DNA from: Christiangramia sp. OXR-203
Lineage (GTDB): Bacteria > Bacteroidota > Bacteroidia > Flavobacteriales > Flavobacteriaceae
Direction of reading: 5' to 3'
DNA length: 64,000 nucleotides
NCBI RefSeq assembly: GCF_034372165.1
Contig: NZ_CP139698.1
Location: 2,356,001-2,420,000 of the forward strand
Every line of letters begins with the position of its first letter. Position 1 is the stretch's first letter. The translations under genes were made by a program, and so were the position numbers. The notes beneath the pieces were generated by a model that was not told where the DNA came from, made no database searches, and saw nothing but the letters and a program-made list of their open reading frames with translations. Shown here one piece after another: positions 13,106-34,096 of the stretch.

Positions 13106-13242
13106 AAGCCTGGTTTTGATTAAAAATACGTTTTTAATGCGCTTGTCTCCTTTAAAACGCAGCATGGACAATTTTAGTTCAGGTTTGCAGCAAATCGCCT
13201 AATATGCTTATCTTCACCCCGGTTTTGCCCAAATCAACCTCT

Positions 13243-14487
13243 ATGAATAGATCACTTTTACTCTGCCTGTTCTTCTTCGCTTTTGTTAAGTTGAACGCAC
13301 AGCAAATCACTGAAAAGAACACTGATAGTCTTTATTTCCAGGGACTCGAACTCTACCAAAATAAACAATATCAAGAGTCCTTACAATACACTAACCGGGG
13401 ATTACAACTTGCTTCAGAATATCATGATATCAGAATATTAAGAGTTCGGAATTTATGGGCACTAGATAGTATTGATAAGGCTACTACAGATCTTGAATTC
13501 CTAATGCAGAATGCCCAGGATTACCCGGGTGTTAGAGAACTCACCGTTCGCCATACCAAATTATTAAAGGATCCTGAAGAGGCTCTGGCTTACCTTGAAC
13601 AACTGGAAAAAACACAGAGTTTAAGTGCGAATATGCTTATTCTTAAATCTGAACTTTTACTTCAGAATAAGGATAAAAAAGCCTCCAGAGAGATCGCTTT
13701 AGACCTTTTCAATAATCGTGAACTGGATCAAAACAAGCGATATGTCCTTCAGAATATATTAAAGAGAACGATTAGGGATGAGATTGGGGTAAATTACCAG
13801 TACATCTATTTTAGCGATGAATATAATCGTGAGAACTGGCAAACCATTAGTCCGGAATTTCAGCATTATTTCAACAGCAGTGCAGTGATCGCCCGGGTCA
13901 ATTATACAGATCGTGGTTATGACCAAAGTACTTTATATGAGCTGGAATCTTACCCTGTTTTCAGCAATAAAGTTTATGCATTTTTAAACCTGGGAATTTC
14001 AGATGGAACTCTATTTCCAGACCTGAGAACCAGTGCCTCTCTATTTGTCAATATCTTCTCGATCTTTGAATTAGAAACCGGGGCGAGATTACTACATTTC
14101 TCAGATGAGGATTATTACTCCGGAATTCTGGGGCTTACTATGTACAAAGGTAAATTCTATATCAACTCAAGAGTTTTCCTTGGACCGGAGATAAATGATC
14201 AGTTAACCCAGAACTACCAGTTAAACGTACGTTACTATCTTAATAATGCAGATAATTTCTTCTTCTTAAGACTTGGTACGGGTATTTCGCCAGATGAAAC
14301 TACAATCTTTACGCAAGTTCAGGAAAATCCTTCTCTGGAAGCATATTATTCAAATCTCGGCTTGAATTTCACCATTGGACCTCATCATATTTTCCAGGTT
14401 GGTGGTGGTTACCTGTTCGAAGATATCACTTCAAACAGGCAAGGTGATCAATTTATTGGCAATGTTGGGTATCGCTATAGATTCTAG
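13243..14487 (+). CDS. TPR plus YaiO-type outer-membrane beta-barrel protein
   Basis: From the ATG at 13243 the protein has 414 residues with a signal peptide ending LNAQQ. Residues about 25-170 are TPR-like helices; the rest consists of alternating beta strands ending in an aromatic C-terminal residue (VGYRYRF), as expected for an outer-membrane barrel. This matches the YaiO family. In E. coli yaiO neighbours the GT2 gene yaiP; here the gene converges on a processive GT2, overlapping it by four bases, which supports a polysaccharide secretion role. That role is inference from context. Confidence 0.8.
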   Translation: MNRSLLLCLFFFAFVKLNAQQITEKNTDSLYFQGLELYQNKQYQESLQYTNRGLQLASEYHDIRILRVRNLWALDSIDKATTDLEFLMQNAQDYPGVRELTVRHTKLLKDPEEALAYLEQLEKTQSLSANMLILKSELLLQNKDKKASREIALDLFNNRELDQNKRYVLQNILKRTIRDEIGVNYQYIYFSDEYNRENWQTISPEFQHYFNSSAVIARVNYTDRGYDQSTLYELESYPVFSNKVYAFLNLGISDGTLFPDLRTSASLFVNIFSIFELETGARLLHFSDEDYYSGILGLTMYKGKFYINSRVFLGPEINDQLTQNYQLNVRYYLNNADNFFFLRLGTGISPDETTIFTQVQENPSLEAYYSNLGLNFTIGPHHIFQVGGGYLFEDITSNRQGDQFIGNVGYRYRF

Positions 14488-15935
14488 GTGTCTGAAACCT
14501 TAAATCCTTTTCTGGTCATGGTACCCCAGCCAGATTTAATACGGAAGATCTTCTTATAATAACCCTTCATTTGGCCATATACCAGTATTGGATGATACAG
14601 GAAAGGTTCGAGATATGCAGCAAGAAGAAGTTCTACAACCTGCTTTGGTTTGTTATAATGATTAAAGTTCTTGACATACATAAAAATGGCTGCCGTGGAA
14701 AAGATACATCCTACAATGTAAGCTGCTGTAAATAATAACACTGCCATTGTCCAGTTAATCATTCCGAAGAAAGCAAAAGCGATGATACAAATGATTCCCA
14801 GAAATTCAATAATAGGCGCTCCAAACTCGAAAAACAACCAGTAAGGATAATAGAGAATTCCCATGTAGCGATACTTAGGATTGAAGAATAATTTCCTATG
14901 GATCTTCAAAGTTTCCCAAAGTCCCCGCGCCCAGCGATCACGCTGCTTAATTAAAATATCATAATCTGGCGGCCCTTCTGTCCAGCATAAGGTTTCCGGT
15001 AAATAAACCACTTTATAAGGTAATTCCTTTTCTTCCATCAAACGTCTTAAGCGAATACATAGCTCAAGATCTTCTCCAACTGTTTTTGCATCAAATCCAC
15101 TTACCTCGATCACCCTCTTCCTAGGATACATACCAAAAGCTCCAGATACGAGCATGAGTCCGTTTATTTCGCTCCAGGCCATTCGACCTAACAGAAATGC
15201 CCGAATATATTCCACGACCTGCACCATAGGCACCAAGTTGTTAGGCAAACGCAGTTCTTTCATCACCCCGTTCTTTACGACCGAATCATTTGCAATTCCA
15301 ATACCACCGCCACAGGCGATAATTTCGCTGTTATATTCTTCTAGGTAAGGTCGTACCATTTTTAGTAGGGCATCCTGCTCGATGATACAATCCGCATCTG
15401 TACAAACTACCAGTTCTGATGTTGCAAAATTGATCCCGGCATTCAGGGCATCTGCACGGCCACCGTTGTTTTTATCCAGAACAGTAAGATGGGTATATTT
15501 TGAAAGTGTACTTTTATAAACATATTTTACGGTCGCCGTAGGAATAGGCTGTGTGATAAAGGTCGCATCCCTTCTCTCCAGTTTGAATTCCTTGATGAGC
15601 TTTTCCAGTGAATCATCTTTACTTCCATCATTTACCAGGATTAGTTCATAATATGGATATTGTATGGATAATAAGCTTTTTACGTTCTCAATAATGGTAA
15701 GACCTTCATTATAAGCAGGAGCAATAAGCGAAACCGAAGGAATATCTGTAGCACTAACAATATCATTTACCTGCAGGAATCGCGATTTCTTCTTATTTCG
15801 GCGTATGGCACGGCTGGCCAGGATCACACCTGCGAAATACATGCTCATCAGGGCGATCCCGTACGCAAAGAAAAAATAGTTTGCAGCAAGAAATACATAT
15901 TCCCCGCTAAAAAACCTTTCTATATCATTCAACAT
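14484..15935 (-). CDS. Processive membrane glycosyltransferase family 2
   Basis: This 483-residue protein has an N-terminal helix (about 15-38), a GT-A catalytic domain and three to four C-terminal helices. It carries the motifs of processive synthases such as PgaC and cellulose synthase: VNDGSKDDS, CTDADC, GEDLELCIRLRR and QRDRWARG (the QxxRW motif). It probably polymerises a sugar at the inner membrane while extruding it. It is the last gene of a three-gene operon with a HEAT protein (11-nt overlap) and a degenerate receiver, and faces the YaiO-like barrel. Confidence 0.88.
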   Translation of the reverse strand: MLNDIERFFSGEYVFLAANYFFFAYGIALMSMYFAGVILASRAIRRNKKKSRFLQVNDIVSATDIPSVSLIAPAYNEGLTIIENVKSLLSIQYPYYELILVNDGSKDDSLEKLIKEFKLERRDATFITQPIPTATVKYVYKSTLSKYTHLTVLDKNNGGRADALNAGINFATSELVVCTDADCIIEQDALLKMVRPYLEEYNSEIIACGGGIGIANDSVVKNGVMKELRLPNNLVPMVQVVEYIRAFLLGRMAWSEINGLMLVSGAFGMYPRKRVIEVSGFDAKTVGEDLELCIRLRRLMEEKELPYKVVYLPETLCWTEGPPDYDILIKQRDRWARGLWETLKIHRKLFFNPKYRYMGILYYPYWLFFEFGAPIIEFLGIICIIAFAFFGMINWTMAVLLFTAAYIVGCIFSTAAIFMYVKNFNHYNKPKQVVELLLAAYLEPFLYHPILVYGQMKGYYKKIFRIKSGWGTMTRKGFKVSDT

Positions 15936-16977
15936 TTAAATTTGAATTTTCAGGGTATTGCTGGTAATAGAATTCCTGGACCTTTTCTTTGTATCCATTG
16001 TTCCATAGAATTTCAGCAACATTCAGTTTTAGTTCTTCATTATTTCCATGAAGCTGTCTTAGGTAGAAGTCCACGTCAATATCAGAATTATCATAAATAT
16101 AATTTAATAGTTGCGCCTGCTGGACTGGGTTTGCTACTCTTTCGTAGACATCCTTGATATAATCCATTCTTTCCGTAGACAATGCAAAGGTTTGAATACA
16201 GTAAATAGCAGTTTCACGTACCTCATAATCCGGATGCTCTAGATGCTCCATGATAAAAGGAATTTCAGTATGCAATTCAAATTTTCTAATAATTCTCATG
16301 ACCAGTTTCTTACCAAAAAGCTTATCGGTCTTATAGGCCCTTTTTAACCATTTCATTTCTGGTTTTGGATACAGATCATAGAGCTTTTCAACGATCTTAA
16401 TTTGTTGCCACAAGGTGATATTTCGTTTAAGGTATGGAAGAAACCTGAGTGATTCCCATCCCATAAAAACAACCATTGCGATCTGTGCTTCTCTTCGCAC
16501 GAATACGTTCTTATGATTCTGAAACTTAAAGACCTCATTCATATGCTGAGACTGATTCATCTCATAAATTTCCCTAATTCCACGAGCTTTGGAATACCAC
16601 CCCCACTTGGAGATTTTGGTGAATGAAGCATTGTACGGCGGGATCTGCCCATATAGCTTCTTAAGCTTGAAGTAATTCTCCCCAAGAATAGTTCGCTGAG
16701 TACGTATCATCAATCGAATAAGATACTGCACGTTATTTCTGTTTCCTTTACGGATACCAACGGCTTTTAAGCGATCATTGATCTCACTAATGAGCAAGGG
16801 ATCATCTTCGTTATTATAGAGATAACGGCTTACAATATCAGCGAAAGTATATTCAATACGCTCCAGGGCACGCATACGATTCTTTCTATAGATCATGGTG
16901 ACCGCTATGGAAATCCAGTAAATAAACAGGATCGCCAGCACGCATTTAATAAAAAGTAATACTCCCGCTTCGGTCAT
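15925..16977 (-). CDS. Membrane-anchored HEAT-repeat protein
   Basis: This 350-residue protein has one N-terminal transmembrane helix (about residues 6-27) followed by an all-helical cytoplasmic region. That region includes HEAT-like repeats near residues 155-345 (FVRREAQIAMV, DYEVRETAIYCI, LKLNVAEILWNNG). It probably acts as a scaffold. It overlaps the receiver gene through an ATGA junction and the GT2 gene by 11 nt, so the three are translationally coupled and likely work together. No catalytic motif is seen. Confidence 0.75.
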   Translation of the reverse strand: MTEAGVLLFIKCVLAILFIYWISIAVTMIYRKNRMRALERIEYTFADIVSRYLYNNEDDPLLISEINDRLKAVGIRKGNRNNVQYLIRLMIRTQRTILGENYFKLKKLYGQIPPYNASFTKISKWGWYSKARGIREIYEMNQSQHMNEVFKFQNHKNVFVRREAQIAMVVFMGWESLRFLPYLKRNITLWQQIKIVEKLYDLYPKPEMKWLKRAYKTDKLFGKKLVMRIIRKFELHTEIPFIMEHLEHPDYEVRETAIYCIQTFALSTERMDYIKDVYERVANPVQQAQLLNYIYDNSDIDVDFYLRQLHGNNEELKLNVAEILWNNGYKEKVQEFYYQQYPENSNLNVE

Positions 16978-17330
16978 GAATATGCCTGAATTGTTGATTC
17001 GATTTCGTCCAGATCTATGGGCACTGCGTAAAAGCCAGTAATATCTTTCAATGCGAAGATCTCCTTCTTTATTTTATCCTGTCCCATGTTCGTAACCACC
17101 AATAAATTCTTATGCGGAATAATTTCCTGCACCTGGGCCACAAATTCCAGTGGTGCAATTCCTTCAAAAAGAATGTCTGTGATAATAAATTCAAAATCAC
17201 TTTGTTGATCCTCTATCGTAAGCGCATCCAGCGATCTTATGGCTTTACAATCAAAATGGTTTATGGTTACAAGCCTTTCCAGAATCTTTAAAATAATTAT
17301 ATCTTCCTGAATGACCAGAACTTTTCGCAT
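16974..17330 (-). CDS. Degenerate response-regulator receiver protein
   Basis: This 118-residue single-domain receiver keeps a phosphoacceptor-like Asp at residue 52 (IITDILFEG) and a Thr at 80 (VVTNMG). The acidic pair is QED rather than DD. The conserved Lys of the KP motif is replaced (YAVPIDL, Val103). Phosphorylation switching is therefore doubtful, and it may act as a constitutive binding module. The ATG at 17330 is preferred to a TTG six bases upstream. It is first in the operon with the HEAT and GT2 genes. Confidence 0.75.
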   Translation of the reverse strand: MRKVLVIQEDIIILKILERLVTINHFDCKAIRSLDALTIEDQQSDFEFIITDILFEGIAPLEFVAQVQEIIPHKNLLVVTNMGQDKIKKEIFALKDITGFYAVPIDLDEIESTIQAYS

Positions 17331-17739
17331 GCTCAAGATTTAGGTGGAAATATACGTAATAGGTCGTTAAACAGTAAAAAATAATACATTTCGGTTGATA
17401 TAATATACAATTTTGAAAAATGAGTAAGAAACATCTTTCGATATTATGCTCGTTTTAACTAAGTACGCAAGAATCCTAAAACTGAAAACGTATATTTCAA
17501 ATTTAGAATCTGTTACTTTCTAGAAGGTTGATCATTATAGAATAGATTATTAAAATAAGCTTGGGTACGGTCAACCAATTAAAAAATTTAGAAATGTAAG
17601 CTTATAAACCAACCTACTTTTGTCCTAAGTCTATTTATCTACACTAAGTTGTAACTGACCGAATGTAATGCTTGCTTAATCGAATTAATAGCTTTAAAAT
17701 CGATTGTTATAGCATCTTTGATTGACTAATCCTATTCCT
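17331..17739 (+). other. Divergent intergenic region
   Basis: These 409 nt separate the exopolysaccharide-like operon (minus) from the H-NOX operon (plus) and should hold both promoters. On the minus strand TATATTTC near 17350 differs from TAnnTTTG at one base. On the plus strand TAGCTTTA near 17690 is a similarly weak match. I see no gene, repeat or convincing operator. Confidence 0.4.
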
Positions 17740-18153
17740 ATGAAACGTAAGTTAAATATCCTTTTTATCGAAGATGATGAAATTGAGGTAATGAAACTAA
17801 ATCGTACGCTAAATTCAGTAGAATTAAAGCATATGGTTCAGAATGCAAGAGATGGTGAAGAGGCATTAGAATTTTTGCAACATAAGGATCGTTTACCAGA
17901 AATAATATTATTGGATTTAAATATGCCTAAAATGAATGGTATCGAATTTCTTAGTATTTTAAAACAGGATGAAACGCTAAAGTATATTCCTACTATTATC
18001 CTTACAACATCAAGTAATCGGAAAGATTTATTAGATTGTTTTAATATTGGTATCGCTGGTTATATCATAAAACCTCTCAAATATGATGATTATGTCTATA
18101 AACTAAAAAGTGTACTGGATTACTGGAGCATTAACGAACTGATTAAAGTATAA
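17740..18153 (+). CDS. CheY-like response regulator (H-NOX operon)
   Basis: This 137-residue receiver of the Rcp1/CheY type has the acidic pair EDD near the N-terminus, phosphoacceptor Asp59 in ILLDLNMP, Thr in ILTTSSN, and Lys in YIIKPL. There is no output domain. It sits one base upstream of the H-NOX gene and in the same operon as the PAS kinase at 18696, its likely phosphodonor. The ATG at 17740 is chosen over a TTG six codons upstream. Confidence 0.9.
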   Translation: MKRKLNILFIEDDEIEVMKLNRTLNSVELKHMVQNARDGEEALEFLQHKDRLPEIILLDLNMPKMNGIEFLSILKQDETLKYIPTIILTTSSNRKDLLDCFNIGIAGYIIKPLKYDDYVYKLKSVLDYWSINELIKV

Positions 18154-18154
18154 T

Positions 18155-18709
18155 ATGAAAGGAATTGTTTTTACTGAGTTTCTGGAGATGGTCGAACAGG
18201 AGTTTGGTCTGGAAGTTCTGGATCAAATCATCAATGAATCTGATTTGAGTTCAGGAGGTGTATATACTGCGGTTGGAACCTATGACTTCATAGAAATGCA
18301 GAGGCTCATTGTAAAACTTTCAGAAAAAACAGGTTTGAGTGCAAATGATCTTCTGTATGCATACGGAAAAACATTTTTTGCAGTTCTTGAAAAGAATCAT
18401 GCAAATATTTTCAGCCTATATGATGGACCACTGGAAATGCTAGCTTCCATCGAAAATCACATCCATGTAGAAGTTAGAAAATTATATCCAGGAGCTGAGC
18501 TACCTACCTTTCGTGTTATTCAGCAAGACGACAATTTTCTTGAGATGATGTATTATTCAGACAGGTCTATGTACATGTTTGCAAAAGCGCTCATGGTACA
18601 AACCTTTGACCATTTTCTTGAAAATTCAAGGATAGAACTGGAAAAAGTTCAGGACGATGGAACACAGGTGAGGTTTAGAATTTACAAAGAGCCACATGCA
18701 GTTAACTAA
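18155..18709 (+). CDS. H-NOX (haem NO/O2-binding) sensor protein
   Basis: This 184-residue stand-alone H-NOX domain begins with the family N-terminus (MKGIVFTEFLEMVE) and contains SSGGVYTAVGTYD. The proximal haem ligand is probably His104 (HIHVEVRKLYPGAELP). The YxSxR propionate-binding motif is Tyr133-x-Ser135-x-Arg137. Bacterial H-NOX proteins of this size bind NO and regulate a partner histidine kinase in trans. Here the kinase start overlaps the H-NOX stop by 14 nt and a CheY-like regulator lies one base upstream, a classic H-NOX two-component arrangement. Confidence 0.95.
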   Translation: MKGIVFTEFLEMVEQEFGLEVLDQIINESDLSSGGVYTAVGTYDFIEMQRLIVKLSEKTGLSANDLLYAYGKTFFAVLEKNHANIFSLYDGPLEMLASIENHIHVEVRKLYPGAELPTFRVIQQDDNFLEMMYYSDRSMYMFAKALMVQTFDHFLENSRIELEKVQDDGTQVRFRIYKEPHAVN

Positions 18710-21071
18710 GAACGTTGAAATTTTAGAGCGTGCACTTATGCGTGAGAAAGCTGCCCGAAAGGCGGCTGAAGCAATATTGGAACAAAAATCACTGGAGCTA
18801 TATAATGTCTCTGAAGAATTACGCCAAACTAATTCGCGGCTTGAGGAAACCCTTGATAGAAAAACTTCTGAACTTGAAGGCGTATTTGAAACATTGATTG
18901 ATGCTTTCATTGTCATGGAACTATCTGGTGATGTAATTAGTATGAACCAGGCAGCCAAGGATTTGCTTGGTTTCGACCCAGAAGAAGAATCTGTTAATTT
19001 AAACCAACTTGTAAAGGACAAGTACAAGGAATATACTTTTGAAGCTTTTAAGGAGCTTACCATCCACGGAAAGTTTAACAATTATCGCGCGGTGATTATT
19101 ACCAGGAATGGTGAGGAAAAGATCGTTCAGATAAATGCCAGTATCATTTATAACATTAAAGGTGAACCGATCGCTGCCCAGGGTATTGCGCGGGATATTA
19201 CGCAGGAAACCGCGATGAAGCGGCAATTGCAGTACCAGAAAAGACAGCTTGATATTATCTTCGGAAATTCACCTATTGGTGTGTCCCTCGCAAGATCGAT
19301 GGATGGTGGTCTTCTTATGGTAAACAACGCCATGACCAAGATGTTTGGCTACACGCCTGAAGAATTTGAAAAGGTTGATGTGAACAAGATCACACATCCT
19401 GACCATCGCAAAGAAACAATGAAATTGAGGGAGAAGCTTTTTGCAGGAGACATAGAAACCTACCAGATGGAAAAGCGGTATTTCAGAAAAGATGGAACTC
19501 TACTTTGGGCTAACACCAGTGTTACTGCCGTTCCCGATGACAACGGTGTTACTGAATATCTAGTAGCCACTGTTGAAGACATCACAGAGCGAAAAGAAGC
19601 AAGTAATAAACTTAAACAGTCAGAAAACAGAATGTCCACTCTTATTAAGAACATGCAGAGTGCGGTATTGCTGGAAGATGAAAATAGAACAGTTAGCCTT
19701 ACGAACCAGAGATTCTGTGATCTCTTCGAGATCCCTGCTCCCCCAGAGGCTTTAACAGGTACCGACTGCTCCAGTGCTGCGGAACAATCTAAAGTTCTTT
19801 TTTCTGAACCGGAACAGTTCGTTAGTAAGGTCGAAAATCTTATTAAAAATCGTACCACAGTCATTGGAGAAGAGATTGAAATGGCAGATGGCAGATTCCT
19901 TGAGCGTAGTTATATCCCTATTTTTAGTGATGGAGTTTACAAGGGTCATCTGTGGAGCTATGATGATATCACTATTAGAAAACGCTACAAAGAATTTTTA
20001 CAAGCCCAGAAAAATAAATATAGTAGCATCATAGCTAATATGAATTTAGGTTTACTGGAAGTAGATGCCGATTTAAGAATTTTAATGGCCAATCAAAGCT
20101 TTGAAGAGATTAGTGGATATTCTAAGGCTGAACTAATTGGCAAACATCCAGGTGAACTACTATTAACGAAAAGATCAAGAGAAATTTTTGAGAATGAAAT
20201 TGGAAAAGAAAACACAGATCAAATCAGGAATCATGAATTGGACGTTATTAATAAGAACGGAGAATTAAGAACCTTGTTAGTAAGTGGAACTCCAAACCTG
20301 AACATGAAGGGCGAAAATATAGGTTCTATCTTTATTCATCTTGATATTACAGATCGGAAAAATCTCGAAAACAAACAGGTTGAACTTCTGGAAGATCTTG
20401 AAGTTCAAAATCAGGAGTTGAGTGATTACGCACATATCGTTTCCCATGATCTAAAATCTCCTCTTCGTAATATTTCGGCACTATTGAGCTGGACCAGGGA
20501 AGATTTTAAGAATCAGTTGAGTGATGACAGCCTTATTAATATCGATCTTATGCAAAATAAGGTGGAAAAGATGGATCATCTTATTGAGAACATTCTCAAG
20601 TACTCCAGCATAGATCGCAGCTCGGCAAGCAGTGAAAAAGTTGATGTTCAGTCACTGGTGGAAGATATCATAGCCATGATCTATATTCCTGATCATATAG
20701 AGATTAGGATCAAAAATAAATTACCAGTGATCCAGGCTGACACCACCAGAATTCAACAATTATTTCAAAATATCTTGTCGAACGCTGTAAATTATATTGA
20801 AAAGGAACAGGGAACCATTGAAGTAGACGTTGAAGAAAAAGCACAGGATTATATATTCTCCGTTAAAGATAATGGTATTGGAATTCCAGTAGACCAGCAT
20901 GACCGAATTTTCCAGATCTTTAATACGGCATCAGACCGTAAAAAATCTAACGGAATAGGACTGAGTATTGTTAGAAAGATCATTGATCTCTATCACGGAA
21001 AAATATGGCTGGAAAGCACACCTCATGTTGGCACTACATTCCATTTCAGCATTAAAAAATCTCAGGTATAA
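18696..21071 (+). CDS. H-NOX-associated multi-PAS sensor histidine kinase
   Basis: This 791-residue cytoplasmic kinase has an N-terminal coiled coil (about 1-60) and four PAS domains (about 61-170, 185-300, 310-425, 440-555). Then come HisKA with the phosphoacceptor His near residue 585 (HIVSHDLKSPLRN) and a HATPase_c domain with N box QNILSNAVNY, G1 DNGIGIP and G2 SNGIGLSI. No transmembrane helix is seen, fitting partnership with a soluble haem sensor. It overlaps the H-NOX gene by 14 nt. Likely targets are the receiver at 17740 and perhaps the Hpt/LytTR pair downstream. Confidence 0.92.
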   Translation: MQLTKNVEILERALMREKAARKAAEAILEQKSLELYNVSEELRQTNSRLEETLDRKTSELEGVFETLIDAFIVMELSGDVISMNQAAKDLLGFDPEEESVNLNQLVKDKYKEYTFEAFKELTIHGKFNNYRAVIITRNGEEKIVQINASIIYNIKGEPIAAQGIARDITQETAMKRQLQYQKRQLDIIFGNSPIGVSLARSMDGGLLMVNNAMTKMFGYTPEEFEKVDVNKITHPDHRKETMKLREKLFAGDIETYQMEKRYFRKDGTLLWANTSVTAVPDDNGVTEYLVATVEDITERKEASNKLKQSENRMSTLIKNMQSAVLLEDENRTVSLTNQRFCDLFEIPAPPEALTGTDCSSAAEQSKVLFSEPEQFVSKVENLIKNRTTVIGEEIEMADGRFLERSYIPIFSDGVYKGHLWSYDDITIRKRYKEFLQAQKNKYSSIIANMNLGLLEVDADLRILMANQSFEEISGYSKAELIGKHPGELLLTKRSREIFENEIGKENTDQIRNHELDVINKNGELRTLLVSGTPNLNMKGENIGSIFIHLDITDRKNLENKQVELLEDLEVQNQELSDYAHIVSHDLKSPLRNISALLSWTREDFKNQLSDDSLINIDLMQNKVEKMDHLIENILKYSSIDRSSASSEKVDVQSLVEDIIAMIYIPDHIEIRIKNKLPVIQADTTRIQQLFQNILSNAVNYIEKEQGTIEVDVEEKAQDYIFSVKDNGIGIPVDQHDRIFQIFNTASDRKKSNGIGLSIVRKIIDLYHGKIWLESTPHVGTTFHFSIKKSQV

Positions 21072-21163
21072 GCGAAAATGGAGCTATAGTCATTCTGATC
21101 ACTCTTGAAAAATCTCATTCGATATCAACTCAGCAATTATTCGTTAATATAGATGGAATTAGA

Positions 21164-21990
21164 ATGAGCAAAGAATTGTTCAGGAAAATGGATTATCAAG
21201 ACACGAATATAATTTTGTAATTTCATCAGGAAATTTACACTGTATATCTTGCTGAAGAGGTGGCGTTAGCCAAGGTACTGAAAACCCACTTGTTGTTTGT
21301 AAATGTTGCTGAAGAAGGAAAAGTTGTGAGCATTGATTTCTATGGCGATGATCTTAAAATTTCCTTCGGAAATTGGTTGGTGGATCCTATTTGGTCCTGA
21401 AAGTATTATCACTGAATCTGAAAATTTTGTATTGTTTTAACTCGATGGATAACCAGCACTAAATCTGTACTCAAAATATCTGGGAACAAAATCTGTCGAG
21501 CTACCGCAGTCTTAGTTCTTCTACACTCTTTACTTAAAAAAAAGTCCACAAACATCCGTTGATACGTACAATTCTAAATATTAACTGGGAAAACAATTCA
21601 TTAGTCCCTGGCGTGAGATATCACTTTGGGTTCAAGATAATAGCTTCTGCAACGCACTTTAAAAAGGTACTCAGGATTCAGCAACTCTGGCCAACCAGAA
21701 TGGAAAGAAATGACCTGAACTAGCACTTCTGGTAAGTTGTATTGGCCGCCGACTCGTCCTAAGTCAATGAGCAGAAGAAGAGATCGATGAAGTGATCAAA
21801 GTGATTGCAAAAGCTTTGGAAGAATTGAATTTAAAAGATTTTTCAACCTTTTCAATGAATCTTATAGCAATAGTGAAGAACAGTTGAACATGCAACAGTG
21901 TGGATCTCGCGTTATCTGAGATGGACTTTATAATGCCGAACAGAAACTGCGTAAAGTTGTAATGTATCAAAATTCTATATCACTTCTGCG
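21164..21990 (+). pseudogene. Decayed FIST-domain gene
   Basis: Conceptual translation across several frames recovers pieces of a FIST-domain sensor protein. YSKYLGTKSVELP resembles the FIST_C start. QDSATLANQNGK, LALLVSCIGRRLVLSQ and AEEEIDEVIKVIAKALEEL follow, interrupted by in-frame stops and frameshifts; SCxGRRLVL is highly characteristic of FIST_C. The tail (AEQKLRKVVMYQNSISLL) lies near 21930-21985. FIST proteins are ligand-binding signalling modules often encoded beside histidine kinases. Boundaries are approximate because no frame is intact. Confidence 0.75.
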
Positions 21991-22089
21991 ATCCAGGCAG
22001 GCCTTAAACTCTAAAGAATTTAATAAAGAGAACTGAAAATTCCAGAACAATGAGCTTTCAGAACATTTTCATTAGAAATATTAATAATT

Positions 22090-22582
22090 TCAAAAATTTT
22101 AAATATAATTTTGAAGCTGAAAAGAATTGAATGTCATGATTGAAGGAATTCCTAAATATTCTATTATTGAAATGGCAGATCATGGCCCGTACCAGATATC
22201 TAGTTCATGAGATTGTAGAACTGTTGGTTATTTCCGATGGTAACAAAGTGGAAATTTCAGAAGAGCTTCCGCCTGTTGAAGTAGATAAATTTAGAATTCC
22301 GTAACTATTCGAAAATATTATTTACAATATGGTAAAAAGTGTTGAATAAGAGACAAAATAGAGAACATTGTTGCCAATAACTTTGGAAATGAAATATTAA
22401 AGAATCTGGCACAGGAGCTACTGTAAGGCATTATTATAAGATCATTGAAAAGATCCACGCCAACAAGAACTCTAACAGAATCAGGTTCTATATTATCATA
22501 AAGATGGTAGATTTCTATAGAGGTTAGATTAGTTGGGGAGTCATGAATACGTAGGAATCAATTTTTATTTTACTTTACCAAA
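22090..22582 (+). pseudogene. Decayed histidine kinase (HisKA end and HATPase)
   Basis: Translation in shifting frames yields MIEGIPKYSIIEMAD (compare LIENILKYSSID in the intact kinase upstream), LVHEIVELLVISD, KFRIPxLFENIIYNMVKSVE (N-box region), and IKMVDFYRG followed by INFYFTLPK (C-terminus). Many stops interrupt it and the phosphoacceptor His region is lost. It ends exactly where the intact Hpt gene begins. It was probably a paralogue of the kinase at 18696, once co-transcribed with the FIST gene. Confidence 0.75.
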
Positions 22583-22903
22583 ATGAAAGAAAACCCAAAT
22601 TTAAACTACCTGTATAGGCTATCTGGCGGAGATAAAGAGTTCGAAAACAAACTCTTAGATATTGTCAAAAAAGAATTCCCGGAGGAAGAAGCGGTTTACC
22701 AAGAAAATATAAAGCAGAGTAATTTTCTAGATGCTGCCTCCAATGTTCATAAACTTAAGCACAAAATTAGTATTTTAGGCCTTGAAGAAGGTTATCGCTT
22801 TGCGGAAATCTATGAAGAAGAACTCCGTAAGAATGATCCTAAAAAGCATAATAGTTTTACAGAGATCCTTCAGACCATGGGCGATTACATTGAAAAGTTT
22901 TAA
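22583..22903 (+). CDS. Hpt phosphotransfer protein
   Basis: This 106-residue all-helical protein has the Hpt motif HKLKHKISILGLE, with His56 as the likely phosphoacceptor. It is followed six bases later by a LytTR response regulator. Its original kinase was probably the decayed one immediately upstream; the intact H-NOX-associated kinase at 18696 is now the nearest candidate donor. The frame is open and well formed, so it does not share the decay of the upstream sequence. Confidence 0.85.
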   Translation: MKENPNLNYLYRLSGGDKEFENKLLDIVKKEFPEEEAVYQENIKQSNFLDAASNVHKLKHKISILGLEEGYRFAEIYEEELRKNDPKKHNSFTEILQTMGDYIEKF

Positions 22904-22914
22904 ATTAATTGTTC

Positions 22915-23634
22915 ATGAAATGTTTAGTAATTGACGATGAGGCTACGGCCAGAATGATTATAAGTCAGCTTATAGATACTCATAAGGAACTCAACCTTGT
23001 TGGTGAGTTCTCCAATGCTATGCAGGCGATCAAATATTTAAACCAAAATCCGGTAGATCTTATATTTCTGGATATCCATATGCCAGACTTTACTGGATTC
23101 GACTTTATTCAAACTTTGATAAATCCTCCAAATGTAATTCTTACGACTTCAGACAGGAGCTTTGCAATAGAAGCTTTTGAATATGACTGTATTGTAGATT
23201 ATATGGTGAAACCAATAACTCCGGAACGTTTTAAGAAGGCTGTTCAAAAAGCTAAAAATGCTAAACCTGCCAGACAGTCTATTCCAGAGCCAACAGAAAT
23301 TAATTCAGATGTTAACAAAACTGACAATGATCTGTATGTGAATATTGACCGTAGGCTAATCAAAATCGATATTCCAAGTATATACCTGGTGGAAGCCAAA
23401 GGTGATTATATACAAATTAAAACATTCGAAAAGAACTACACTGTTCATTCTACCCTGAAAAAGATCGAAAACAAGTTGCCTGAAGATCTCTTCCTGAAAG
23501 TGCACAGATCTTTTGTGATTAATACCAAGCACATTATTGATATTGAAGACAATAGCGTTCTAATAGAAAAAGATGTTGTTCCGGTTAGCCGTAGCAATCG
23601 CCCGGAACTTATAAAAAGATTGAACCTGCTTTAG
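22915..23634 (+). CDS. LytTR-family response regulator
   Basis: This 239-residue regulator has an N-terminal receiver (acidic pair DDE near residue 7, phosphoacceptor Asp53 in FLDIHMP, Lys in MVKPI). Its C-terminal LytTR DNA-binding domain (about 140-238) contains IYLVEAKGDYIQIKT and HRSFVINTKHI. It probably regulates transcription. The ATG at 22915 is favoured over a TTG six bases upstream. It sits just after the Hpt gene, which likely passes phosphate to it or drains it. Confidence 0.92.
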   Translation: MKCLVIDDEATARMIISQLIDTHKELNLVGEFSNAMQAIKYLNQNPVDLIFLDIHMPDFTGFDFIQTLINPPNVILTTSDRSFAIEAFEYDCIVDYMVKPITPERFKKAVQKAKNAKPARQSIPEPTEINSDVNKTDNDLYVNIDRRLIKIDIPSIYLVEAKGDYIQIKTFEKNYTVHSTLKKIENKLPEDLFLKVHRSFVINTKHIIDIEDNSVLIEKDVVPVSRSNRPELIKRLNLL

Positions 23635-23761
23635 CAACTTAACTCCATATAATTCCTGTTCGTCGCTCTTAGATTCTGCTTAGACGAATATTCCCACACA
23701 CCTCGCATTGTGCCGGTATCTTTACATCAAATAAGTACCTAAACGTCAAAATAGTAAAGCG

Positions 23762-24841
23762 ATGAAAATTCATAACTACGCAATAATCATGGCTGGTGGG
23801 GTTGGAAGTCAATCCTGGCCCGCATCCAAACAATGCTGTCCTAAACAATTTCAGGATATTCTTGGAAGTGGTAAAACGCTTATTCAAAACACTTTTGATC
23901 GTTTGAAGAGTTTTATTCCGGCTGAAAATATTCTTGTACTTACTAATACAATTTACAAGGAAATCGTAATGGAGCAGTTGCCGGAAATTTCAGGTTCGCA
24001 GGTAGTACTTGAACCAATTATGAGAAACACTGCTCCAGCTATCTTACTTGCAGCTATGAAGATACATAATCGTGACCCCGAGGCCAGGATGTTGGTGGCT
24101 CCATGTGATCACTGGATCCAGGAAGAAAGTTTGTTTGAACAGGACATGTGCATGGCTTTTGAAGAAGCTGAAAAAGGAAAAAGACTGATAACTTTTGGTA
24201 TCAAGCCCCACTTTCCTAATACCAGGTATGGCTACATACAATATGATGATAAGGGAAATGAGCAGATATACCACGTTCAAAGATTTACAGAAAAACCAGA
24301 TTTCCAAACTGCCCAGAATTTTATGAACCAGGGAAATTATCTATGGAATAGTGGGATATTCGTTTGGAAAGCACAAACCATCCTGAACAAATTTGAGATA
24401 CTACTTCCGGATATGTTCAGATTATTCAAAGTTGGTGAGGGCTTTTATAACAAACCACACGAGACAAATTTTCTGAGAAGTCATTATCAATACGCTGAAA
24501 ATATCAGTGTCGAATACGCAATCATTGAACATTCAGAAGAAGTGATGGTTATTCCCTTATCTTTCTCCTGGAACGATCTTGGAGCATGGGGTTCTTCAGA
24601 GAACGAATTTCGCGGTTATGGCAAATCTAAGACGGTGGTAAACACGAAATTCATACCCGTTGAAGCCTCAGGTAAAATTATTAGAACTGAAGGTAATAAG
24701 ATGGTTTTAGTCGATGGATTGCAGGACTACATGATCCTAGAAAACGATGAAGTGCTACTTATTGTTCCGAAGGAAAAGGAACAACGGCATAAACATATCA
24801 GGAACGAGGTTATAGAACGCTACGGTGTTCAATTTATCTAA
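23762..24841 (+). CDS. Mannose-1-phosphate guanylyltransferase-like protein
   Basis: This 359-residue nucleotidyltransferase matches ManC/CpsB, which makes GDP-mannose from mannose-1-phosphate and GTP. It shows EPIMRNTAPAILLAA, VAPCDHWI, FGIKPHFPNTRYGYI, RFTEKPD and WNSGIFVWK in order. The N-terminal NTP-binding loop reads GGVGSQSWPASKQCCPKQF, where most relatives have GGxGSRFWPxSR; the usual Arg is Gln here. Activity may be altered. Length is normal for the Bacteroidota single-domain type without a mannose-6-phosphate isomerase domain. Confidence 0.85.
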   Translation: MKIHNYAIIMAGGVGSQSWPASKQCCPKQFQDILGSGKTLIQNTFDRLKSFIPAENILVLTNTIYKEIVMEQLPEISGSQVVLEPIMRNTAPAILLAAMKIHNRDPEARMLVAPCDHWIQEESLFEQDMCMAFEEAEKGKRLITFGIKPHFPNTRYGYIQYDDKGNEQIYHVQRFTEKPDFQTAQNFMNQGNYLWNSGIFVWKAQTILNKFEILLPDMFRLFKVGEGFYNKPHETNFLRSHYQYAENISVEYAIIEHSEEVMVIPLSFSWNDLGAWGSSENEFRGYGKSKTVVNTKFIPVEASGKIIRTEGNKMVLVDGLQDYMILENDEVLLIVPKEKEQRHKHIRNEVIERYGVQFI

Positions 24842-24940
24842 CCATTCACCGACACTAAATACTTTTTTATCGTCTGGTCACCTACAACCAACGAATAATT
24901 CCATGAAAAGCAGATTCAAACTTTAATTTTAGTCAAAGTT

Positions 24941-25849
24941 ATGGGAAAACTACTACAATTTTTTTATCTCATTTTATTACAACATCTTCCGGCTCAGGAG
25001 TTTACCTATCTTGGTAATTACAATGAGCCAGAAGTAGCAGATCATCTGGAACTGGTTGACGATTTCATGACTTATGCAAATATGCTGAGGACCGAGCCCG
25101 CCCTACCGGAAAGTTATCTTTTTCCAGACTACAATCCGCAGTGCATCTCTGCCGGTTATGATAAAAGTTTCGAACTGGCAGAGGTTGCGGCGGTTGGTGA
25201 AATTGAATTTGATCATTTGATTCATTATAGCTATAACCGTAATGTTATCATGTTTATTGTTTACCAAATTGAGGATACGACTCCAAACTTTGAGCTAATC
25301 GGCGTTAAAATGATAGCCCATAAGGCACATAACTCTGAACCTGTTAATGTTAGAATTATAGATGAGGTGAAAACCAGTATAGCAGTTGATTATCGGCATT
25401 ATCCCTTTGCGACAAGGCATAAAATTATAGGGGACATAGAAAGCTTTTTTCCAACTGAAGAAATTTTTAATCAAATTATGCCCACTTCATATGTGATAAG
25501 CAACAATTCTCACTTAAATACCCATTGCAAATTGTTACTCAATCAGGTATTATATGGTATTCATTTTCAGTCTTCAATTCCAGAAACTAAAAAAGATATA
25601 GCAACAAAGAAAAGCAGGCTTCTAACTGAAACCCTAAATAAACCGTTGAGTAGAGTAGCTTTTCAAGTTACAGAAAAAATTAACGCCGTCCAGAGATGGA
25701 AAAGCGATAAGATGGTCGGCATGTACCCTACTTTCTTTGTGAAACGAAAGTTTTATGAAGATAGCCGGCTTTGTCTTATCGTGAAGACCAAGGAGTGCGA
25801 ATCCGGCTTCACGATAAATAATAAAAAAGGGGTGTGGAATATAGTGTAG
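24941..25849 (+). CDS. Hypothetical secreted protein
   Basis: This 302-residue protein has a short hydrophobic N-terminus (LLQFFYLILLQHLPAQE) resembling a signal peptide. No motif or family is recognised in the rest, which is mixed alpha/beta in appearance with several Cys residues. It lies 99 nt after the manC-like gene and may be co-transcribed with it. The next 1.2 kb is largely non-coding. Confidence 0.5.
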   Translation: MGKLLQFFYLILLQHLPAQEFTYLGNYNEPEVADHLELVDDFMTYANMLRTEPALPESYLFPDYNPQCISAGYDKSFELAEVAAVGEIEFDHLIHYSYNRNVIMFIVYQIEDTTPNFELIGVKMIAHKAHNSEPVNVRIIDEVKTSIAVDYRHYPFATRHKIIGDIESFFPTEEIFNQIMPTSYVISNNSHLNTHCKLLLNQVLYGIHFQSSIPETKKDIATKKSRLLTETLNKPLSRVAFQVTEKINAVQRWKSDKMVGMYPTFFVKRKFYEDSRLCLIVKTKECESGFTINNKKGVWNIV

Positions 25850-26180
25850 TTTTTTAATAACACTAAAGACCTGGAAAAAGATCCACTTAAAAGGAAATGG
25901 AAAAACAACACCCATTCATAAGAATACTGTAATTTCAAAAGGAGATGGAAATTTAGTATGTAAAAATACTATGACCTTTCAAATGTTTCATCATATGAAC
26001 AAGGTTTTCAGTTTTTAAATTGCGTTACTACAATGTAGAGTGCTATGGTTTGCAAAAGATCATTTTTTTACGGGAAATTTACTAATTGTAGCTAGTAATA
26101 TTGCCCAAATCTAGTAAAATATCAGGAAAGATTTACACTTAGTTTGTTGGTTACTTACTAAGTATTTAGGTGGTTAGGTG

Positions 26181-26210
26181 AATAAGCCGGGGAGTGGTCT
26201 CCGGCTTATT
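26181..26210 (+). terminator. Terminator-like hairpin
   Basis: AATAAGCCGG pairs perfectly with CCGGCTTATT across a 10-nt loop. The following tract (ATTTATC) is only weakly T-rich, so it may be a terminator left over from a lost gene or act on either strand. No gene ends nearby. Confidence 0.45.
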
Positions 26211-26319
26211 ATTTATCTAGTCTATAGTAAATTTAACCATAGACGTGTGCTTACGAATTTTTTAAAATATCAAAGTGTTTTGAATTAATATCATATTTAT
26301 GCTATACATCCAAATAAAA

Positions 26320-26526
26320 AAATACTATTAACAGGATCTCCGTAGCCTCTTAATTCTTTCTGACTGGCTGGTAAAATATCTTTTTGACCAATATATTTTT
26401 TCTACTTTCCGAAACTCCGGTGATCGCAGTATAAACTTCTAATGGGATTTCGACATCTATATTCTTCAGTTTGTTCTTCTTTGCCCCCAGTACCTTGATG
26501 TAATTCTTAGAAGTTCTTCTCTTTTT
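26320..26526 (-). pseudogene. uvrA: uvrA fragment (second ATP-binding domain)
   Basis: The minus-strand frame reads YIKVLGAKKNKLKNIDVEIP, then YTAITGVSESRKNILVKKI. This matches the start of the second ABC domain of UvrA (GAxxNNLKNIDVxIP, GVSGSGKSTLV) but with the Walker A loop destroyed (GVSESRKN). After the stop at 26350 the similarity continues in another frame as RGYGD. UvrA is about 900 residues, so this is a short decayed piece. It has no functional expectation. Confidence 0.75.
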
Positions 26527-27014
26527 CTGGCGCATCAATATTTTTCTTTATAAAACTGCTTCTCTCTATTATTAGTTTTACTATAATGAAGGGTGAAAAT
26601 GTATGTTTCGTATTCTGTGTAAATTATTTATTTGAAAAATAATTGCGGCAAAACTGATAGTGTCCCATTCTAAAAAGGTGTTCGCAGGTAGTGATCAATT
26701 ACAAAACTGTAGAAGATATATTTTTGAAAAGATAAGGGATTGGAGTTCGAGCTATTAGTATTTATTAATAGGTAGGTATTCATTCCATTATTAAAGTTAA
26801 TTTAGATTTGGCAAGCTACTCAGTTACAGCTGTAAACTACATCTAAGAAAAGGATTAAGAATTACTACTCGTCCATTAAACTGATCTTATCGACGAAATG
26901 AATCCCCTCTAAATCCGGTATATTCATCTACAGTACGATGTCATTCATCGAATAGTATCATACTTTCCTAGCCTTAAAAACGATCTTAAAGCTCATAAAC
27001 TTTAAATTAACATT

Positions 27015-27371
27015 ATGACCCTAAATATTTATGAGATCGAAGGAGTTTTTGAACTACAAGGTGATGTTACAACCTACAATGCTCAACAAGTCGAAATGTA
27101 CTTTGAAGTTATGTTGAGGTTAAAACCTCAAGTAATTATCAACTTGTCCAGACTTGAAAGTATGGATGTTGCAGGTGTTTATGCTTTCTGTAATCTATTG
27201 AATCAAGCATCAAAAGAAGGAAAGTTCTTGCGTTTTGTTGGAGCAAACAATTTCAAGCTTCAAAATGCATTTCTTAACTCAGGATGCAATTTATTTGACT
27301 TCAATTATTTCGATTCAAGTGCAAAAAAACATTTTAAAAACTTCACTATACTTTCGAAAAAAGAACTTTAA
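27015..27371 (+). CDS. STAS-domain protein lacking the phospho-Ser
   Basis: This 118-residue protein has the STAS fold pattern of anti-sigma-factor antagonists: an N-terminal strand with VFELQGDVTTYNAQQVE, then INLSRLESMDVAGVYAFCNLL. In canonical antagonists the second motif is DSSG; here it is D51-V-A-G54, so the phosphorylatable Ser is absent. It may be a structural or constitutively active STAS protein. It lies in a gene-poor region about 1.7 kb from the RsbQ-like module, but no direct link is shown. Confidence 0.75.
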   Translation: MTLNIYEIEGVFELQGDVTTYNAQQVEMYFEVMLRLKPQVIINLSRLESMDVAGVYAFCNLLNQASKEGKFLRFVGANNFKLQNAFLNSGCNLFDFNYFDSSAKKHFKNFTILSKKEL

Positions 27372-27844
27372 ATGGGATCGTAAATAAAGTAGCTCACGCT
27401 ATTTTATATGATTGAATAGTGTTTGTAAAAAACATACATCTCTATTCCCTAGATGAAGGTATTAATATTTTTAATGTACCAGTATTACGGAGCCAATAGA
27501 AATCTCTTTAAAACACATAAACCTTAATCAAAATTTTTTGAAATGCAATTACACTAATTCTGTAGTTGAGAATATCTGAATTGGGTACACTGGTATTATG
27601 ACCTGCAAAGTCATTATTAAATATTGTTTTCGAAAATAATTTCATCACTTCTTGTTTTGAACACAATATATTCACCTTCAGGTAACAAGACCTTCTCAAT
27701 TTGGCTTCAGAATAACTAAAGTTGTAGTTATTTTACCAGACGTAGTCAAGAATTCATCGAAACCAATCTTCTACCTATCGAAAATATTCCTGCTAATAAT
27801 ATAATAATGAGATCTTCACAGAGAAAAATACTAGAACAAATACT
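27372..27844 (+). other. Intergenic region without recognisable features
   Basis: These 473 nt separate the STAS gene from the GT4 gene. Only short interrupted frames are present on both strands. I see no hairpin, tRNA or clear promoter, and nothing that translates into a family I recognise. Confidence 0.5.
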
Positions 27845-29038
27845 TTGAAACTTGCTTTCATTAGTGCTCACCCTTACAGCATAGCTACCTTGAATAAATA
27901 TGGTTTACGGCTTGCTAAACAATTGGCTCAAAAAGCCGAAGTTGATGAACTGGTATTGATCTCAGACCAGCGTGACCCTATACAGCTGGACAATAAAATT
28001 GGAAAATGTAAGATAAGTATTGAACAATCCAGGAATTCCAATAGTTCTAACAATATATTCAACATTTATAGAAATATTGTTAAACATCAGCCTGATGCAA
28101 TTCTTTTTAATTTTCAATTCAATAAAACTGGATACAAAAAACTTTCCGTCGTCTTAGGTTTTTTATTAGCCTTAGTTTTTAGATTAAAAGGAATCCCAAC
28201 GATCGTAATCCTTCATAAAGATCTTGAGGATACGGCTTCCATTAATGATAATTTATTGCATGAAAGATTTCTCTATAACATCGATTCCTTGATGAGAACC
28301 GGACTAACTAAAGTTTTACTGCAAGCAGATACTATCGCTCTTACTTCAGAAAAGTATATGAATATTGTAAGAGAAAAATATAATGCTCAAAATTTAATCC
28401 AAATTCCTCAAGAATCATTTAAAGCAATCCCTGAACCAAATTTTGACTTACCAAATGGACCTAAGAAGATTCTTACATTTGGGAAATTTGGAAAACATAA
28501 GAAAGTGGAAGCCTTTATTGAAGCAATTATAAAATTAAGAGCAAGTACCAATCAGGAACTTGAAATAGTAATTGCCGGAACAGATCATCCTACTACTCCA
28601 GGTTATCTAGCTGGAATAATGAAACAATATGATCATATTAAAAATCTTACGTTTACGGGATTTGTAGATGAGGAAAATGTTGCAAAGAATTTCAAAGAAA
28701 GTACGTTGGTCGTCTTGCCTTATACTTCCGAAAGAGTGAGCTCAGGAATGCTACTTAAGGCTGCTTTTTATGGAAAAGCTGTCGTGATCCCAAACTTCAA
28801 AGATCTTGCTCTAAACATAAAAAAACAAGGATTTGCCGTGGATGTATATGAACCTGGCGATGTAGATTCACTCGCAAATTCCTTAAAATGCATTATAGTT
28901 AACGATTCATATAGAAGAACTATTGGCGAAATGAACTATAAGGCTTCATGTAGTTTGCCTATGGAGAAAATTGCTCAGTTATATCTTGATGAATTTCAAA
29001 AGCTATTTCGCGCTAAGATGAATTTAAATTTTGTTTGA
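27845..29038 (+). CDS. Glycosyltransferase family 4
   Basis: This 397-residue GT-B enzyme begins MKLAFISAHPYS. Its C-terminal donor-binding half contains ILTFGKFGKHKKVEAFIEA, VIAGTDHP, TFTGFVDEENV, VLPYTSERVSSGMLLKA and YGKAVVIPNF. It transfers a sugar from a nucleotide-sugar, probably in glycan or glycolipid synthesis; the specificity is not visible. The start appears to be a TTG codon at 27845, since MKLAFISAHP is the natural N-terminus. A terminator follows at 29062-29092. No other sugar gene is adjacent. Confidence 0.82.
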   Translation: MKLAFISAHPYSIATLNKYGLRLAKQLAQKAEVDELVLISDQRDPIQLDNKIGKCKISIEQSRNSNSSNNIFNIYRNIVKHQPDAILFNFQFNKTGYKKLSVVLGFLLALVFRLKGIPTIVILHKDLEDTASINDNLLHERFLYNIDSLMRTGLTKVLLQADTIALTSEKYMNIVREKYNAQNLIQIPQESFKAIPEPNFDLPNGPKKILTFGKFGKHKKVEAFIEAIIKLRASTNQELEIVIAGTDHPTTPGYLAGIMKQYDHIKNLTFTGFVDEENVAKNFKESTLVVLPYTSERVSSGMLLKAAFYGKAVVIPNFKDLALNIKKQGFAVDVYEPGDVDSLANSLKCIIVNDSYRRTIGEMNYKASCSLPMEKIAQLYLDEFQKLFRAKMNLNFV

Positions 29039-29061
29039 ATAGGTTGATTATTGTTTAGATG

Positions 29062-29092
29062 AAAAGGGTAAGAAGAAATTCTTATCCTTTTT
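29062..29092 (+). terminator. Rho-independent terminator
   Basis: A 13-bp stem (AAAAGGGTAAGAA with TTCTTATCCTTTT, one G-T pair), a GAAA loop and a T tract lie 24 nt after the GT4 stop. The A-rich left arm means it could also serve the converging kinase gene. Confidence 0.8.
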
Positions 29093-29113
29093 GGTTTTCT
29101 GTTCAGCCCACAT

Positions 29114-31924: not shown

Positions 31925-32153
31925 AGAGATTAGCTTGCTAAATTATGATATAATTTTAAGAATTGTGGAATTAGGCTTTGAGTTTCGAAATTAAAAAATA
32001 AAAAAATACTATGGAGCTATTGATTTCGTCCCTGAATATTCACAATGCCATTAATTTATTCTAATTCAAGGTATTGTGATTTTGCAGTAAATAGAAAGAC
32101 TTTCATCCTTAAATAACAAAAGTGGATACAGACATTTCAAGAAACCTGGACAT

Positions 32154-32195: not shown

Positions 32196-32208
32196 TCTTC
32201 TTTAATAA

Positions 32209-34086: not shown

Positions 34087-34096
34087 CCTAACTAAT

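Follow-up and report, generated by a model that had tools for sequence, protein, structure and literature searches.

We examined a 64,000-nucleotide stretch of DNA (the window) from Christiangramia sp. OXR-203, whose genome is a single contig of 3.4 Mb, and focused on an operon built around a stand-alone H-NOX haem sensor. The closest named relatives of the H-NOX gene come from Christiangramia, in the Flavobacteriaceae. The gene lies between those for a receiver and a soluble histidine kinase with four PAS domains (HK1), all on the plus strand (Table 1). The original prediction had described these three genes as a complete two-component operon packed with a 1-nucleotide gap and a 14-nucleotide overlap. 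The packing is indeed exact (gap at 18154, overlap at 18696-18709), and the three identities are borne out by Pfam matches to Response_reg, to HNOB, and to four PAS_4 domains with HisKA and HATPase_c. The operon is, however, not complete in that form: the conserved unit extends to 23634 and includes genes for an Hpt and a LytTR protein, and two further members, encoding a FIST protein and a second kinase (HK2), are decayed here. Below, G and L numbers denote genomes and loci; G000 is the genome of the source strain and L001 its own H-NOX locus.

Table 1 Features of the H-NOX locus and its neighbourhood (window positions)
Feature	Position	Strand	Basis
Operator-like direct repeat: half-site TTTATCTACACTAAG at 17634, degenerate second half at 17655	17634..17668	+	Conserved in relatives
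Stand-alone Rcp1-like receiver, 137 aa, phospho-Asp residue 59	17740..18153	+	Pfam Response_reg 5.7e-22; Asp 109/109
H-NOX haem sensor, 184 aa, haem His104	18155..18709	+	Pfam HNOB; PDB 6bde; conserved residues
HK1: soluble, N-terminal coiled coil, four PAS, HisKA (His584), HATPase_c	18696..21071	+	Pfam; conserved His; hydropathy
Decayed FIST (NosP-like) gene, in-frame stops and frame change	21068..21812	+	tblastn with L032 FIST, 1e-42 (1.8-kb target, composition correction off)
Decayed HK2 gene, stops, several frame changes	21803..22583	+	tblastn with L032 HK2, 4e-32 (1.8-kb target, composition correction off)
Hpt phosphotransfer protein, 106 aa, His56	22583..22903	+	Pfam Hpt 0.0011, below cut-off; His 104/104
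LytTR DNA-binding response regulator, phospho-Asp 55	22909..23634	+	Pfam; Asp 101/101
ManC-like mannose-1-phosphate guanylyltransferase	23762..24841	+	NCBIfam TIGR01479 5e-80, below its cut-off
Scrambled relic of 822-aa secreted protein	24941..25849	+	Only residues 1-110 and 446-505 align
STAS protein of polysaccharide cluster	27015..27371	+	67% to G315 copy
Glycosyltransferase (group 1) of polysaccharide cluster	27845..29038	+	62% to G315 copy; Pfam PF00534

A conserved unit around H-NOX and HK1

The H-NOX protein matches Pfam HNOB well above its cut-off (6.2e-38; 130.7 bits against 25.5). Its best solved relative is PDB 6bde (1.6e-59), together with 6bdd, both of which we take to be the H-NOX of Kordia algicida; this comparison concerns the sensor only. 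In the part of the literature available on these structures, they are the subject of a simulation study. The predicted haem His and YxSxR motif are both in place: the His sits at position 104 (113 of 114 aligned H-NOX proteins have H there) and the motif occupies residues 133-137 (Y133 and S135 in 114/114, R137 in 106/114). Pro117 is conserved in all 114. The distal pocket is free of Tyr, being lined by F9, F74 and F142 (position 142 is F or L in 112/114), on the assumption that the pocket positions follow the Thermoanaerobacter numbering, placed here through the YxSxR motif. The haem His and the Tyr-free pocket are as expected of a sensor of nitric oxide (NO), and a stand-alone H-NOX beside a soluble kinase fits the earlier proposal that it would control the kinase in trans.

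HK1 has the makeup of a HisKA sensor kinase, with the phospho-accepting His (113/113) in HisKA followed by HATPase_c, and it carries no receiver domain of its own. It contains no transmembrane-like stretch (19-residue Kyte-Doolittle maximum 1.43), in agreement with its prediction as a soluble kinase. Its four PAS domains are likewise real, but the suggestion that they give room for additional ligands is weak: across 106 loci the kinase frame after H-NOX spans 268-1157 codons (median 664), so that the room for PAS domains varies widely, and what stays constant is the N-terminal coiled coil. In three relatives without H-NOX the coiled coil scores 66, 40 and 40 bits versus a median of 74. This weaker score, together with the constancy of the element, makes the coiled coil a candidate docking site for H-NOX. 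Kinase length does not track the presence of the FIST cassette described below (p = 0.35).

Among the closest solved relatives of the receiver, the first is an unnamed response regulator, RcpB is second, RcpA fourth, and Rcp1 stands further down. With Rcp-type regulators among its nearest structures and no output domain, it is an Rcp1-like single-domain receiver. The Hpt assignment rests on the orthologues, 28 of 37 of which match Pfam Hpt at E <= 0.01 (best 1.5e-07), on the invariant His, and on a confident all-helical model (five helices; predicted local distance difference test score 91.4). The best PDB profile matches of the window protein are also Hpt domains, at weak E values of 0.07-0.36. 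The LytTR protein is above both cut-offs (Response_reg 1.3e-18, 67.6 bits; LytTR 7.3e-19, 68.2 bits), and the Hpt and LytTR genes are intact in the window.

To place these genes in a wider context, we surveyed 299 genomes of the family, which hold 109 H-NOX places. The surroundings of 106 were retrieved and, with the window, 107 loci were examined, four of them cut short; the two remaining places are a half match in G112 and a sub-threshold piece in G076. Counts are given for the 103 loci with at least 6.5 kb downstream, and they leave aside ten out-of-family loci and other loci from outside the family or the sample. The survey revealed a conserved Flavobacteriaceae unit with the order receiver, H-NOX, HK1, an optional pair of FIST protein and HK2, Hpt, and LytTR. 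All 103 loci have a kinase after H-NOX and 98 have the receiver before it; 96 contain Hpt and 93 LytTR, and 91 loci have all five core genes. An arrangement with the receiver upstream in 98 and the kinase directly downstream in 103 of 103 H-NOX loci is not due to chance. The phospho-sites of all four relay proteins are conserved throughout, as listed for three of them in Table 1 and above for HK1.

Departures from this order are few. The separate receiver is missing in L112 and L222, where the kinase bears its own. In L141 the receiver sits between HK1 and Hpt, and in L218 it lies further upstream, behind an extra HK1-type kinase that precedes H-NOX. G313, G319 and G320 keep receiver, HK1, Hpt and LytTR without H-NOX or FIST; we therefore regard these four genes as a core. 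Outside the counted sample, hybrid kinases occur in L229, L230, L232 and L233, with no receiver of about 140 residues directly upstream (larger receiver proteins are upstream in L229 and L230). L193 has two Hpt-LytTR pairs, and L082 has two consecutive FIST-kinase pairs.

Judged by their substitution pattern, the five retained genes of the window (receiver, H-NOX, HK1, Hpt and LytTR) are under purifying selection: the ratio of nonsynonymous to synonymous rates (dN/dS) against G315, the nearest relative on the tree, is 0.03-0.09, with Hpt at 0.27 where dS is low. Part of this record predates the cassette loss. No GGDEF, EAL or HD-GYP match was found by Pfam in the ten window proteins scanned (14484-25849), and the unit is thus not of the H-NOX/cyclic di-GMP (c-di-GMP), or HnoB, operon type.

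Decay of the FIST-HK2 cassette

Between HK1 and Hpt, FIST and HK2 are both present in 55 of the 103 loci and both absent in 45; FIST stands alone in two and HK2 in one. FIST and FIST_C domains were present in all three FIST proteins of relatives that were scanned. Like members of the NosP family (equivalog NF041558), these three proteins align with the model over most of their own length and sit before a kinase; unlike them, they fall below the curated cut-off (49-54 bits against 450).

When the cassette is absent, HK1 and Hpt genes abut, at -132 to +31 nucleotides between stop-to-stop frames in 39 of 41 cassette-free loci that have both. The exceptions are L141, where the receiver lies in between, and the window, where the interval is 1476 nucleotides. 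We ruled out that 21072-22582 is plain intergenic DNA, since it aligns with FIST and HK2 of L032, a locus from a close relative; the L032 FIST protein found the relic at 2e-35 against a larger set as well. Each forward frame of the interval has 30-38 stops, and the longest open stretch is 61 codons. A tblastn search with L032 HK2 did not find the H-box stretch of HK2 in this part of the window, and a search of the whole genome found no FIST match elsewhere. The cassette is intact in G315. These sequences indicate that the source strain recently lost FIST and HK2 from the unit.

Such relics are not general in cassette-free loci: among 51 loci without a downstream FIST and the window, only the window had one (L112 has an intact FIST upstream). 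Within the genus, H-NOX occurs in 8 of 24 genomes; FIST lies beside it in five, is a relic in the window genome and is cleanly absent in G312. The eighth, G309, is metagenome-derived. On its 8.3-kb contig (L138, 410-6652) the receiver is open, H-NOX is split between two frames and HK1 breaks off some 60 codons in, from where the sequence continues directly to a hybrid kinase and a hydrolase equivalent to window positions 29114-31924. Orthologues of Hpt and LytTR were not found in G309. Either decay has gone a step further here, removing what remained of the unit, or the contig is misassembled.

The cassette has changed often. On a tree of 97 loci (omitting L112, L123, L141, L151, L222 and loci lacking receiver, H-NOX, Hpt or LytTR), at least 11 changes are placed on branches with good support, and the best tree has 21; the tree gives no direction of loss or gain. 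Of 11 independent pairs, 10 show FIST and HK2 changing jointly, and none shows them changing oppositely (10 to 0, p = 0.002). In G315, HK2 is by far the kinase core nearest to HK1 (48% versus at most 34% for other matches), suggesting that both kinases feed the same receiver.

A direct repeat before the receiver gene

The receiver gene is preceded by a direct repeat with the consensus TTCRTCKACACTTAA, spaced 21 bp from start to start and first derived from nine genus and near-genus loci. A half-site of at least 12/15 is found in 85 of 106 loci versus about two in shuffles, and the repeat sits a median of 101 bp before the receiver start codon. A pair scoring at least 21/30 occurs in 85 of 97 loci with LytTR versus 2 of 7 without (8 of 2160 in shuffles), for which Fisher's p = 0.001 overstates the association because the loci are related by descent; p ranges from 0.0004 to 0.03 across cut-offs of 20 to 23. 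The presence of the repeat mostly where LytTR is encoded suggests autoregulation by the LytTR protein.

A strict pattern run on 16 genomes matched this operon in 13, which says nothing new since those 13 were chosen for a strong repeat, and gave three further sites and no control matches; G000, G315 and G311 had none. A looser pattern, allowing three mismatches, gave 57 matches in 42 genomes versus 9 for the reversed pattern, so that some sites are due to chance. It matched before this operon in 31 of the 42; eight had no match, and G175, G320 and G121 had matches elsewhere. In G000, its only match genome-wide is the repeat at this operon. Further sites lie before a fusion of a receiver with a glycosyltransferase (receiver-GT2) in 7 of 10 second-site regions, which were chosen for holding such sites; six of these are 20-24 kb downstream of H-NOX and one is on another contig. 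In eight loci, such sites also stand before a gene close to the operon that encodes a related, large secreted protein. Some of these further sites are listed twice, from re-fetched loci.

A predicted phosphorelay and its alternatives

We consider it probable that these genes encode an NO-gated, unfused His-Asp-His-Asp phosphorelay running from HK1 through the receiver and Hpt to LytTR. On binding NO, H-NOX would act in trans to alter HK1 autokinase activity, probably via the N-terminal coiled coil. HK1 would then pass phosphate to the stand-alone receiver, which would hand it via Hpt to the LytTR regulator. The latter would bind the direct repeat before the operon and, in some relatives, before genes for polysaccharide or for secreted proteins. 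The NosP-like FIST protein and HK2, where present (about half of the relatives), would feed the relay as a second input. This arm and most of the polysaccharide cluster have been shed in the lineage of the window, and the genes of the H-NOX arm have stayed intact.

Transfer of phosphate from His to His requires an intervening Asp station. As HK1 has no receiver of its own, such a station is needed to reach Hpt, and the stand-alone receiver could supply it. The receiver lacks an output domain, as originally predicted, but its target is less open than that prediction had it: most likely it is the first Asp station, leading to Hpt and LytTR. The relay is supported by the invariant phospho-sites, the receiver swap in L112 and L222, the gene order of L141, and the sensor-free core of G313, G319 and G320.

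Several observations weigh against this relay or parts of it. The window Hpt is under the Pfam cut-off (19.5 versus 24.6 bits), and NO binding by the FIST proteins is a guess, as they miss the curated NosP cut-off. Twelve of the 97 loci with LytTR, the window included, have no good repeat pair, the second half-site of the window being degenerate (pair score 19/30), and the shared descent noted above also counts here. Conversely, L124 and L151 keep the pair without LytTR, both in broken or shortened operons. At L123, H-NOX is unaccompanied by receiver, Hpt and LytTR; the genome (G160) holds a second, complete unit (L139). Finally, most of the polysaccharide cluster is gone beside the window operon, and G303 and G300 carry other genes after LytTR.

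The alternative that survives best, if still an unlikely one, is that the whole locus is dying in this lineage and the H-NOX arm is left without output. Concerning the present state rather than the mechanism, it is compatible with the relay. The two stretches of relics listed in Table 1, the absence from G000 of a 1030-residue cluster protein, the degenerate half-site and the longer branch of the window (0.14 versus 0.041 for L135) all agree with it, and the split H-NOX, shortened HK1 and missing Hpt and LytTR orthologues of G309 strengthen it, unless that contig is misassembled. The purifying selection on the five retained genes and their intact active sites speak against it, even if part of that record predates the losses.

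It is rather improbable that HK1 and the receiver are a simple two-component pair, with the receiver acting by protein contact as CheY or Rcp1 does and with Hpt and LytTR serving other kinases of the genome, of the hybrid type. The receiver is near Rcp1-type single-domain regulators, and at least one hybrid kinase that could use Hpt is encoded in the genome (29114-31105). However, 91 of 103 loci hold Hpt and LytTR together with the other three genes, loci lacking H-NOX still combine them with receiver and HK1, and both hybrid-kinase loci of the family sample are without a separate receiver. Sink receivers are known elsewhere, yet we give very little weight to the receiver being a phosphate sink, with HK1 signalling directly to the LytTR receiver and Hpt as a buffer: the Hpt His is invariant, and in L150, L156 and L171 Hpt is retained where LytTR and the upstream repeat are absent, next to genes for a TPR protein and a flippase-like protein. 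Least likely, by a little, is that NO acts otherwise, with H-NOX sensing redox or O2 or with NO modifying LytTR cysteines directly, since neither the window H-NOX nor the LytTR DNA-binding domain contains Cys and the pocket, by the assumed numbering, lacks the Tyr linked with O2 binding. What favours it is, in the text available, the zinc-Cys redox sensing reported for the Vibrio cholerae H-NOX (PMC8738867) and the S-nitrosylation described for the LytTR-family regulator AgrA (PMC6769237).

Starting from the phosphorelay, we tentatively propose a broader scheme, which we hold with slightly less than even confidence. Two kinds of haem sensor, H-NOX and NosP-like FIST, each with a sister kinase, would be plug-in inputs to one unfused, family-wide LytTR phosphorelay. 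Its targets, reached without c-di-GMP, would be the operon itself and genes for surface polysaccharide. Where LytTR is absent, the relay may directly phosphorylate a receiver-glycosyltransferase fusion; in L150, L156 and L171, Hpt may act on such a protein.

Bacillus has a relay of the same unfused, four-step form (Spo0F-Spo0B-Spo0A), in which the receiver is a single domain and the phosphotransferase a separate protein; its inputs and output domain are unrelated, and the likeness is one of principle. Among H-NOX systems, as far as the accessible text of the sources goes, HnoX-HahK of Vibrio fischeri, signalling through the Hpt of SypF or LuxU to SypG, also places H-NOX beside its kinase and an Hpt before a DNA-binding regulator, with syp polysaccharide as output (PMC12369376). 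HahK, however, has its own receiver (D506) and the Hpt is within SypF or LuxU, whereas the present unit encodes receiver, Hpt and LytTR in a gene each. H-NOX-HqsK-LuxU in Vibrio harveyi and V. parahaemolyticus and NosP-VpsS-LuxU in V. cholerae likewise have H-NOX or NosP gating a soluble kinase from which the signal goes on to an Hpt (PMC6769237, PMC8738867), but with hybrid kinases, an Hpt shared with quorum sensing and LuxO as output; the portions available describe no single-operon cassette of FIST and H-NOX. In HnoX-HnoK-HnoB of Shewanella oneidensis a stand-alone H-NOX also controls a kinase, and the output is a c-di-GMP phosphodiesterase (PMC8846402), of which this unit has none. The same source treats c-di-GMP outputs of H-NOX signalling, a review lists FIST genes among the neighbours of one H-NOX group (PMC8738867), and NosP is described as an auxiliary kinase regulator (PMC12570481), each in the sections at hand.

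In the open-access literature, to which our search was confined with subscription papers outside it, we found no paper describing a relay from H-NOX to LytTR. Co-mentions of the two, in the passages available, concern AgrA nitrosylation (PMC6769237) or list the domains apart. In the literature consulted, again in part, H-NOX and NosP signalling of NO has so far been described in Proteobacteria, mostly with c-di-GMP or quorum-sensing outputs. H-NOX two-component signalling is thus known; new here are the unfused relay, the DNA-binding LytTR output in place of c-di-GMP, and the optional H-NOX and FIST inputs, at the strength given above. This unit, conserved in a large group of marine bacteria, combines a predicted operator with a sensor cassette that appears and disappears as one block, and one genome shows this cassette visibly decaying. 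With one sensor arm changing repeatedly, the unit is also a natural experiment in how a relay gains and sheds sensors, and each step is directly testable.

Neighbouring polysaccharide genes

In G315, G311, G302 and G312, LytTR is followed by a polysaccharide cluster with ManC, a flippase, a glycosyltransferase and a cellulase-like protein (Pfam on the G312 copies). ManC opens it, in the same place as in the window. Within the sequence retrieved, the receiver-GT2 fusion appeared in G312. The flippase-like gene that follows the TPR protein or Hpt region in L150, L156 and L171 is of the same kind as in these clusters. The G315 copy of the 822-residue secreted protein has DUF4114 and a weak Por_Secre_tail. 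Of this cluster, the window retains ManC, STAS and one glycosyltransferase. Genes for the flippase, the cellulase-like protein, a 389-residue protein and receiver-GT2 were not found in 23500-34200, the only stretch searched for them, and the 1030-residue membrane protein was not found in the whole of G000. The polysaccharide genes are a putative LytTR target, suggested by gene neighbourhood and a small number of additional repeat sites and largely lost beside the operon here, and the reach of this link is weak.

Between the secreted-protein relic and STAS, a 62-residue open piece (26353-26538, minus strand) matches UvrA (NCBIfam 1.6e-12), a stray fragment. Where relatives have the remaining cluster, the window has the hybrid kinase at 29114-31105 (minus strand), BarA/TorS-like, with kinase and receiver recognized by sequence and a C-terminal stretch that is weakly Hpt-like (E 0.56). 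On the other side of the operon, a divergent set at 13204-17336 encodes a YaiO-type outer-membrane protein, a PgaC-like glycosyltransferase, a HEAT-repeat protein and a receiver, 92-98% alike in L032. We rejected its receiver-HEAT-GT2 part (14484-17336) as a member of the unit, since, leaving G315 aside, only L032 and L001 show it there among 111 loci; in 30 of these (L002-L031) the sequence stops about 1 kb upstream of the receiver.

Elsewhere in the genus, clusters in L250 and L252-L254 combine LytTR and a glycosyltransferase-like pair with a hybrid kinase and two receivers. Away from its H-NOX unit, G303 carries a receiver-glycosyltransferase frame with a second Hpt and ManC directly behind it (L249, 8250-10250).

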